Assembly: GCA_014803985.1 (NCBI GenBank)
Contig: JAAVAO010000042.1
Location: forward strand, 26,094 to 90,093
DNA from: Treponema sp.
Lineage (GTDB): Bacteria > Spirochaetota > Spirochaetia > Treponematales > Treponemataceae
DNA length: 64,000 nt
Direction of reading: 5' to 3'
In this document: one piece after another, positions 30,559-35,067 of the stretch
How the letters are laid out: the number at the start of each line of letters is the position of its first letter
Position numbering within the stretch: the first letter of the stretch is position 1
The notes under the pieces: model-generated
What the model saw: the letters and a program-made list of their open reading frames with translations, nothing else
What the model was told of the DNA's origin: nothing
Databases searched by the model: none
Translations under genes and position numbers: made by a program

Positions 30559-30861
30559 TCATCTTCCGTCACCAAACAAATCCGCGTGAGACCCCGTTCG
30601 CGTCAGTTCCAACACAAGCATGTCATCTTTTTTCTGATAAATCAGAAGCTAGTCGCCCTCAATATGCAATTCGCGGTGATTTTTCCAGTTGCCTTTCAAC
30701 TCGTGGTCGCACAACGATTCTGGCAGTTCAAGATCTTTCGAGAGCATTCTGATAATATCGTCAAGTTTATTGATTTTCTGTCCACGACGAACGGCTCGCT
30801 TGTATTCTTTTTTGAATCGTGCTGTCCAAACAGTCTTGTATTTATCTGCAATGTCGTTCAT
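30559..30861 (-). pseudogene. YafQ/RelE-type mRNA interferase toxin interrupted by an in-frame TAG
   Basis: MNDIADKYKTVWTARFKKEYKRAVRRGQKINKLDDII...HELKGNWKNHRELHIEGD[TAG]LLIYQKKDDMLVLELTRTGSHADLFGDGR; stop codon sits at 30649-30651. Confidence 0.8.
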
Positions 30862-31031
30862 CTTTTCAACTTCGCAAGGGCGTCTTCAACGCTGTCATAC
30901 ACCTTCACCTTGTGCAAGTTTTTGAGTATTTTGTCGCCTTCCTTCATCGCGCGGATCGTGGTGCGGTTCGGCTTGTCAAGCCCGATTCTGAACGGAATTT
31001 CGCCCTCTCGCAAGACGGTTTTCGTGAACAT
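30858..31031 (-). pseudogene. RelB/DinJ-type antitoxin remnant lacking its N-terminus
   Basis: MFTKTVLREGEIPFRIGLDKPNRTTIRAMKEGDKILKNLHKVKVYDSVEDALAKLKR*; upstream in-frame codons FCDQIGISISGLFT have no start before a TAA; stop overlaps toxin ATG. Confidence 0.65.
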
Positions 31032-31570: not shown

Positions 31571-31739
31571 AAACACTTTTTTAATTGTTTTGTAATTTTT
31601 CGCTATCGTTTTTTTCAGGGCGCATTTTTTGCATACGCAAAAACCATGCTTGCTCGGAGGGTCACCGTCTTGCGCGCCTCCGTTGCCTTGCGGCAGCCGT
31701 TTAGCAGGCACAATTCACCAGCCATTTTCGCTAGCATAC

Positions 31740-31816
31740 AAAACTGGGTAAGCAGGGCACCCCCTGCGCCCGAAAGTCGAGGAATAAAAACGAGAAAACC
31801 AATACATCTTTCGCCA
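31740..31816. repeat. Dispersed intergenic palindromic repeat (CGAAAGTCGAGGAATAAAAA..CTTTCGCC family)
   Basis: aaaactgggtaagcagggcaccccctgcgcccgaaagtcgaggaataaaaacgagaaaaccaatacatctttcgcca; nearly repeated at 34990-35067. Confidence 0.75.
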
Positions 31817-33037: not shown

Positions 33038-33568
33038 TTATGGATTTTTTATTAATTTTGGATTTGCAGAAAGAATGTCTATATCAGACTTTGAAAAGTC
33101 TGCATCGTGTGTCAACAAAACTAAATTATAAGTTTTGCAAATATCATAAATTATCTTGTCGTTAAAATCCAATGTATCAACAACAAGCATATTTTTAATG
33201 TCTTCCGATGTTCTCTGCGTATCAATTACTTTAAAAGAGGTTAAGATTCTATTTCTTATTATATCAAAAACATCTTTTTGGGCTTGCATTCCATCACAAG
33301 TATTGCGGAAAACTTTAAAATTACTGTTCTTTTTTGCCCGCAAATGCCATTCATACCTCAAAATTCGGTTTATAACTTCTGACAAAACACCTGTATCTAC
33401 CGCCAGTTGATTTTTATGTAAGAGCAGGCTTTTTAAAATTGAAGAATAACTCTTTTCATTTTCAGGAGAAAAAACGGGCCAAAACAAATAAATAACTACA
33501 TTTGCATCAAAAAATATTGTTCTACCAGAAAGAGCAGAAATGTCAGCCTGTTTAAATCGATTTGCCAT
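33038..33568 (-). CDS. PIN-domain nuclease (VapC-like fold)
   Basis: IFFDANVVIYLF, VLSEVINRIL, LDFNDKIIYDICKTYNLVLLTHDADF; all PIN acidic positions apparent; RBS GAGAGGG. Confidence 0.8.
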   Translation of the reverse strand: MANRFKQADISALSGRTIFFDANVVIYLFWPVFSPENEKSYSSILKSLLLHKNQLAVDTGVLSEVINRILRYEWHLRAKKNSNFKVFRNTCDGMQAQKDVFDIIRNRILTSFKVIDTQRTSEDIKNMLVVDTLDFNDKIIYDICKTYNLVLLTHDADFSKSDIDILSANPKLIKNP

Positions 33569-33569
33569 G

Positions 33570-33923
33570 TCATCCCTCTCCAAGGATTTCTTTGACAGAC
33601 TGCTCTATACGTTTTGGATTTTTATAATATAATTTTGCAGTATCAACAACACGTTTTAGCAAAACGGTGTCTGTAGATGTCAAATCTTCAACCTTTAGAA
33701 ATTTTTTAACGTCATTTTCTGAGAAATCTTTATATAACGCTCCAATCGCTGTATTAAGAAAAGCAGATGTCAGCATAGTTATATTTAGAAAAGACAAAAC
33801 AACTGGTTTATTCTGTCGTATAAACTCGCAAATCACATCATAAACTTTTTTCCCGTCATCTGTTTCTACACAAATATCTGTTCCAACAATTTGATACACA
33901 CTTTTCTTTATTGCTTCTGCCAT
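33570..33923 (-). CDS. STAS-like protein (DUF4325-type)
   Basis: Start re-set to MAEAIKKSVYQIVG; KPVVLSFLNITMLTSAFLNTAIGALYKDFSENDVKKFLKV. Confidence 0.7.
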   Translation of the reverse strand: MAEAIKKSVYQIVGTDICVETDDGKKVYDVICEFIRQNKPVVLSFLNITMLTSAFLNTAIGALYKDFSENDVKKFLKVEDLTSTDTVLLKRVVDTAKLYYKNPKRIEQSVKEILGEG

Positions 33924-33933
33924 ACATATCCTC

Positions 33934-34794
33934 TCAAAATATATCATCCGCACTATATTCTTCAGATGAAAGTCGATATAAATTGCTATCATCCGTCCTA
34001 AACTTCATATTTACAATAGTTCCTGGAAAAGGAGCTTTCAAAAAACTCATAGTTTCTGTCTTGCTTTGTTCATAATAGCCGTCATCGCTTATAATTTGGA
34101 ATGCACCATTATTTAGTTTAATGAATTCTGTCAGCAATGCCAATCCAAGCCCTCCAGAAACATCTATTTTAGTTGTATTTCCATCTATCAACGCCCATTT
34201 TATTGCTTGCAGTGATGTCAGAGTGCTGTTAAATCGAGTATTTAAAAGTTTTTTAAAGCCAAGCCCCATATCAACAATGGTAAATTCGATTATATGTTTA
34301 TTTGGAAAAAATTGTCCACATGTATAAATATAGTCTGTGTTACTATGAATTTGAGCATTTACAAATATTTCATAAATTGATTCAGCAATCTTTTTCTTAA
34401 GTTCATCTGTCATAGACGGCAGCGCAGAACGAGAAAGCAATTCTTTCATAACATAAGAATTAAAATACCTACTCTCCGCTGGTTTTAATTTCAAATATTT
34501 TATAGTTGTATTATTTATATCTTGATATGCGTTATAGCCGTAATTCGCAAGAAAATTATTCCTCTGTAAAACTGAAAGAATATCACGATTTTTTGATGTC
34601 ACAGAAATTTCGTTTGTAGAAGATAGGCTGTCAAGAATTCCCCCTAAAACTGCACACATATTTGCCCCGAACCAATTTTCAAGACGTATGTGTATGTTTT
34701 CAAAATTGGAATTTTGCAAATCATTATATAACTGTACAAATCTATTATAGCAAGATATACTTGTATCTATATTTGACAGGATAAATTCTTTCAT
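33934..34794 (-). CDS. GHKL/HATPase-domain ATP-binding protein
   Basis: N box KIAESIYEIFVNAQIHS, G1 TIVDMGLGF, G2 DVSGGLGLALLTEFI. Confidence 0.78.
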   Translation of the reverse strand: MKEFILSNIDTSISCYNRFVQLYNDLQNSNFENIHIRLENWFGANMCAVLGGILDSLSSTNEISVTSKNRDILSVLQRNNFLANYGYNAYQDINNTTIKYLKLKPAESRYFNSYVMKELLSRSALPSMTDELKKKIAESIYEIFVNAQIHSNTDYIYTCGQFFPNKHIIEFTIVDMGLGFKKLLNTRFNSTLTSLQAIKWALIDGNTTKIDVSGGLGLALLTEFIKLNNGAFQIISDDGYYEQSKTETMSFLKAPFPGTIVNMKFRTDDSNLYRLSSEEYSADDIF

Positions 34795-34989
34795 ACTTCT
34801 TTATCGGAAAAACGACACCTTTTGTTTACTCACAAAGAAACAAAATTCCAACCATACTTTTCATTGCAATTTACCCAAATGCATACAACAAAAACAATCC
34901 ATAGCCCTACTCGTTATTGCCCTAATCCATGAAATGTCAGCAGAAACATGCTAACCCATTTTGCGTAAAACCGAGCAGTGCGAGGTAGC

Positions 34990-35067
34990 AAAACTGGGTT
35001 AGCAGGGCAACCCCTGCGCCCGAAAGTCGAGGAATAAAAACTGAAAAATCGATGCAGCTTTCGCCGT
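34990..35067. repeat. Dispersed intergenic palindromic repeat copy
   Basis: aaaactgggttagcagggcaacccctgcgcccgaaagtcgaggaataaaaactgaaaaatcgatgcagctttcgcc. Confidence 0.75.

Follow-up and report, generated by a model that had tools for sequence, protein, structure and literature searches.

Classical VapBC modules consist of a PIN ribonuclease toxin and a protein antitoxin encoded directly upstream, by which the toxin is restrained. This antitoxin is the DNA-binding protein VapB, which is removed by proteolysis. In the partner-switching modules SpoIIAB/SpoIIAA and RsbW/RsbV, a GHKL kinase is paired with a STAS protein carrying a phosphorylatable serine on helix 2. The output of these modules is a sigma factor, and their kinases lack an N-terminal STAS domain.

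The operon vapKSC was named by Chambers, Rani, Min, Villa and Corbett (EMBO J, 9 June 2026; PMC13373217), who reported 289 instances, 36% of them at most 10 kb from another immune gene. Escherichia VapC is toxic and its D28A mutant is non-toxic, while VapS neutralizes VapC and requires its own C-terminus to do so (PMC13373217). The phosphomimetic variant VapS S48E lost binding and neutralization of VapC, and S48 is buried in the interface of the VapS2VapC2 heterotetramer (2:2; PDB 9Z7O) (PMC13373217). The operon of Escherichia sp. E4736 conferred about 100-fold (about 2 logs) protection on E. coli against phage Bas42, and this protection was abolished by VapC D28A, VapS S48A or VapK F54A (PMC13373217). 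Since Escherichia VapK is insoluble, its activation by single-stranded DNA (ssDNA) was only inferred, from the related CapK and from the F54A mutant, and neither this activation nor the phosphorylation of VapS was ever directly shown for VapKSC (PMC13373217). For CapK/CapS, in which a STAS+GHKL kinase likewise phosphorylates a serine of its STAS partner, ssDNA-dependent phosphorylation was shown directly (PMC13373217). CapK carries a helix-turn-helix (HTH) at its N-terminus and CapS ends in a winged HTH; the pair acts by derepressing transcription and does not release a toxin (PMC13373217). The main text of the vapKSC paper makes no mention of spirochaetes or Deinococcus, and a literature search found no second paper using the name.

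Here, a three-gene locus of Treponema sp. is described which, judged from its sequence, is very probably a vapKSC operon, i.e., a module of the toxin–antitoxin type with a probably abortive role against phages and in DNA damage. Since vapKSC was already published in June 2026, the system is not new, and the locus is a further example of it and no new kind of system.

Organization of the operon

The window, i.e., the whole stretch of DNA that was analysed, comprises 64,000 nucleotides. Within it, three genes follow each other on the minus strand in the order kinase, STAS protein and PIN protein, which is the order of vapKSC, and all three frames are open and of full length (33038–34794). The first gene, vapK (33934..34794; ATG at 34794, stop at 33934), encodes a protein of 286 amino acids with a STAS-like part and a GHKL kinase/ATPase part. 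It is followed by vapS (33570..33923; ATG at 33923, stop at 33570), encoding a DUF4325 STAS-like putative antitoxin of 117 amino acids, and by vapC (33038..33568; ATG at 33568, stop at 33038), encoding a PIN-domain nuclease of 176 amino acids as the putative toxin. The 10-bp gap between vapK and vapS (33924..33933, minus strand) is associated with a Shine-Dalgarno-like run, GAGAGGAT, that starts inside the vapK stop codon. Only 1 bp separates vapS from vapC (33569..33569, minus strand; sequence ...GGATGACATGG...), which suggests translational coupling of antitoxin and toxin. An earlier note, made from the raw sequence, had described three tightly packed minus-strand genes with 10-bp and 1-bp gaps, and coordinates, strand and packing were found to be right.

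Scans for promoters and terminators gave scores not above those of shuffled sequences. In a search of the three proteins against NCBIfam, no family reached its cut-off; the VapC equivalog scored 12 bits with the window VapC, compared with a cut-off of 80. PADLOC matches of the three proteins to DrmA and typeIV_Cas11 were weak and were taken as spurious.

Putative toxin and antitoxin

VapC matched the PIN family PF01850 above the Pfam cut-off (E = 2.9e-8), and the motifs DANV, SEV, DFND and HDAD, on which the earlier note had based its assignment, are present. The predicted active site comprises D21, N23, E64, D134, D137, D155 and D157. D21, E64, N67, D134, D137, D155 and D157 are invariant, the acidic residues being kept in all 18 aligned members, and N23 is retained in every member except one. 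In the alignment with 9z7o, D21 pairs with chain residue 28, the catalytic D28 of Escherichia VapC.

VapS matched PF14213 (DUF4325) above the Pfam cut-off (E = 6e-14), in agreement with the earlier assignment to the STAS-like proteins. Its match to Escherichia VapS in PDB 9z7o had an E value of 4.5e-13 with the single sequence and 7.5e-24 by profile. S53 pairs with chain residue 66 of 9z7o, which corresponds to Escherichia VapS S48 if the chain carries an 18-residue tag, a length inferred from the 134-residue chain and the 116-residue protein. The position of S53 is occupied by serine or threonine in 16 of 16 aligned members, and S53 is proposed as the phospho-acceptor. A structure model of VapS (pLDDT 87.9) shows a C-terminal helical segment (residues 83–113) after the STAS domain, with helices predicted at 83–101 and, at low confidence, 103–113; the final 17 residues or so are generally of low confidence. 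A Foldseek search with this model gave no significant fold match in the PDB (best E = 0.13, with RsbV and RsbS among the weak matches); the library used ends in April 2026, and 9z7o was not among the matches.

In the PDB sequence search, 9z7o was the one strong solved relative for both the STAS and the PIN profile. Since the two profiles match Escherichia VapS and VapC in this complex, the locus was taken as vapKSC.

Putative kinase

The window VapK alone gave no Pfam match; HATPase_c was matched by 9 of 17 aligned VapK homologues. In the AlphaFold2 model (pLDDT 87.8, pTM 0.88), a GHKL fold was recognized by Foldseek against the PDB (Hsp90, topoisomerase VI-B, GyrB, VraS, DesK). The sequences EIFVNAQIHS, DMGLGF and GGLGL, from which a GHKL ATPase had been proposed earlier, are present and contain the N-box (E142/N146/H150), G1 box (D175/G177/G179) and G2 box (G215/G217). 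E142, N146, H150, G177, G215 and G217 are invariant among the 17 aligned homologues. Ahead of the GHKL fold, residues 2–103 form a unit of alternating strands and helices in the model, which is called STAS-like from the order of its secondary structure elements only.

Position 41 is tryptophan or phenylalanine in 17 of 17 aligned homologues. On the basis of this conserved column, W41 is proposed as the aromatic residue contacting ssDNA and as the putative counterpart of CapK W68 and Escherichia VapK F54; if so, the Treponema protein would have tryptophan where Escherichia VapK has phenylalanine.

Occurrence in other genomes

An identical gene order with comparably tight spacing was found in Treponema and near relatives (L001, L002, L033, L089), in members of two further spirochaete families (L035, L036), on plasmid P5 of Deinococcus gobiensis (L031) and, beside an integrase, in Streptococcus phage Javan172 (L039; MK448860.1). 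It recurred in a scaffold of a faecal phage (L040) and in the viral contigs L044, L045, L059 and L062–L070, a list that holds duplicates, since L044 and L065 are one contig and L067, judged by length and coordinates, is Javan172. The association of the three families seen by the earlier note thus recurs in spirochaetes, a plasmid, a prophage and viral contigs. The Deinococcus copy was reached via searches with the ATPase and the STAS protein; searching plasmids with just the PIN protein gave no match. The viral copies were reached by alignments including distant members, and no match was obtained in viral sequences when the alignment was restricted to close Treponema ATPases.

The pairwise distances of VapK, VapS and VapC were correlated (Mantel r = 0.86–0.92; 0 of 5000 permutations), and r was 0.77–0.79 after removal of close relatives. 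This is the pattern expected of genes travelling together. Because the same order occurs in many unrelated records and the distances are strongly correlated, the trio is not a chance arrangement.

Several relatives depart from the three-gene form. In Javan172, where vapKSC is flanked by the repressor region and the integrase, vapC (L039, 5140–5667) is unannotated save for a 120-base hypothetical gene. In the relative G123, vapC (L009, 1076–1402; L090, 5738–6061) has an in-frame internal deletion that leaves 108 of 176 amino acids and removes the segment with E64; vapK and vapS are intact and conserved, and a kinase–antitoxin pair has probably been left without an active toxin. Two-gene versions, which lack a PIN gene and consist of a VapK-like ATPase and a short STAS-like protein, were found in L042 and L046–L057, L042 being a group B Streptococcus prophage with the pair at its lysis/paratox end. 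Other Treponema (L003, L005, L007) encode single proteins of 339–358 amino acids in which an HTH-like N-terminal region and a GHKL ATPase are followed by DUF4325 at the C-terminus, an architecture that marks them as a fused relative of the kinase–STAS pair. Pairs of an ATPase of about 180 amino acids and a DUF4325 protein of about 90–100 amino acids are frequent in Treponema (L010, L014, L015, L017, L019, L025, L028 and similar), and no PIN homologue was detected alongside them; the neighbours of the pairs in L010 and L025 are ordinary housekeeping genes.

Genomic setting

The G+C content of the cassette is 31.4%, compared with 40.6% for the window, and VapS was found in 5 of 201 genomes of the genus. 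For both reasons, the cassette is accessory and was probably acquired horizontally. An acquired defence module is supported by the low G+C content, the patchy occurrence and the defence-gene neighbours in relatives. In G332 (L088), vapKSC has a type IIG restriction enzyme on one side and a fused PARIS AriAB (E = 4e-123) on the other. Besides these, the cluster contains a PLD/SNF2-type helicase, a second PIN-type gene and, together with a resolvase, another type IIG fragment. In L002, SoFic and a type IIG restriction gene lie near vapKSC, and in L001 type IIG restriction fragments do. The copy in the window stands alone amid housekeeping genes, and a scan of ten of its neighbours revealed no convincing defence gene, with cross-matches only to a regulator-like HTH and an amylase.

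The repeats that the earlier note had seen at both sides of the cassette (31739–31815 and 34989–35065) are real and 88% identical. They belong to a dispersed intergenic family with 59 matches across this genome, and thus fail to delimit the cassette and were rejected as ends of a mobile element. The proposed mobility of the module is instead indicated by its patchy distribution, its low G+C content and the carriage of relatives on plasmid and phage. A comparison of the neighbouring amylase gene with relatives, in which the best match had 44% identity, was uninformative about an empty insertion site. About 2 kb from the cassette, a toxin–antitoxin pair of the YafQ/RelB type is encoded on the minus strand (30649–31031); its YafQ toxin looks truncated, since its frame ends at position 63 of the 88-position profile.

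Discussion

The locus shares with Escherichia VapKSC the gene order, a STAS+GHKL kinase, a single STAS antitoxin with a conserved serine or threonine and a C-terminal helix, a PIN toxin with conserved acidic residues, and, in relatives, a neighbourhood of defence genes. It differs in its Treponema host and in its distant sequence, as the match of the VapC family profile to Escherichia VapC illustrates (E = 7.5e-11).

By analogy, VapS in the resting cell would be bound to VapC and block its active site, aided by its C-terminal helix. DNA damage or phage infection would be sensed by VapK, probably via ssDNA held between the STAS and GHKL domains at W41. Activated VapK would then phosphorylate S53 inside the buried VapS–VapC interface, whereupon VapS would dissociate, and the freed VapC would cut RNA, perhaps tRNA or rRNA, and cause growth arrest. 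All these functional steps are drawn from the Escherichia homologue, for which alone it was established that VapC is toxic, that VapS counteracts it, that S48E disrupts binding, that the complex is 2:2 and that the operon protects against phage. The present analysis established the order of the genes, their domains, the conservation of key residues and the homology to the solved VapS–VapC complex. Partner switching like that of SpoIIAB/SpoIIAA with a nuclease as output, as envisaged by the earlier note, agrees with the experiments on the homologous Escherichia vapKSC (PMC13373217). Neither of the two outcomes that the earlier note had named as refuting it was observed, as the three families do occur together elsewhere and the catalytic residues of the PIN protein are conserved.

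The same biochemistry might serve a general stress-arrest or addiction module with no real anti-phage role in this host. Such a module would differ in purpose, not in mechanism, and would overlap with the explanation preferred here. The isolated position of the window copy amid housekeeping genes and the decayed YafQ/RelB pair 2 kb away fit it, and the authors of the vapKSC study call the boundary between stress and immune functions blurred (PMC13373217). However, the homologue protects about 100-fold against a phage (PMC13373217), and relatives reside in defence clusters and prophages, so that a purely stress-related role is possible but unlikely.

The loci without a functional PIN gene (G123, group B Streptococcus) and the prophage copies beside an integrase indicate that the kinase–STAS pair may serve other outputs. 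It might neutralize the VapC of a rival element or control another effector, and vapKSC would then represent a single form of a conflict system carried by phages, a speculation to which we give a low probability.

Alternatively, an ordinary VapBC-type toxin could lie next to a functionally separate ATPase–STAS pair exerting CapKS-like transcriptional control. CapK/CapS pairs are known to control immune operons next to them (PMC13373217), and pairs without a PIN gene occur in group B Streptococcus prophages. However, no VapB-type DNA-binding antitoxin adjoins the PIN gene; the adjacent gene encodes the DUF4325 protein, which would be a STAS antitoxin controlled by phosphorylation and which matches a structure in which VapS binds VapC directly. 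Moreover, the 117-residue VapS ends in a short helical tail and VapK begins directly with its STAS-like domain; Pfam and the models gave no HTH match in either protein and left no room for one. As the defining HTH domains are absent, CapKS was excluded as the identity of the locus, and a separate regulator is highly improbable. A degenerate or silent remnant, for which the vapC deletion in G123 offers a precedent, is scarcely credible in view of the open, full-length frames and the presence of every catalytic residue in the window.

With the locus read as vapKSC, a toxin–antitoxin defence that is triggered by a kinase and was described only recently is now placed in Treponema, Deinococcus and streptococcal prophages, and its mechanism was reached correctly and independently from a reading of the raw sequence. 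The set of loci adds a wider taxonomic range, carriage on prophages and a plasmid, and toxin-less variants. Distant homologues such as these could help with the kinase step, which has been stalled by the insolubility of Escherichia VapK.
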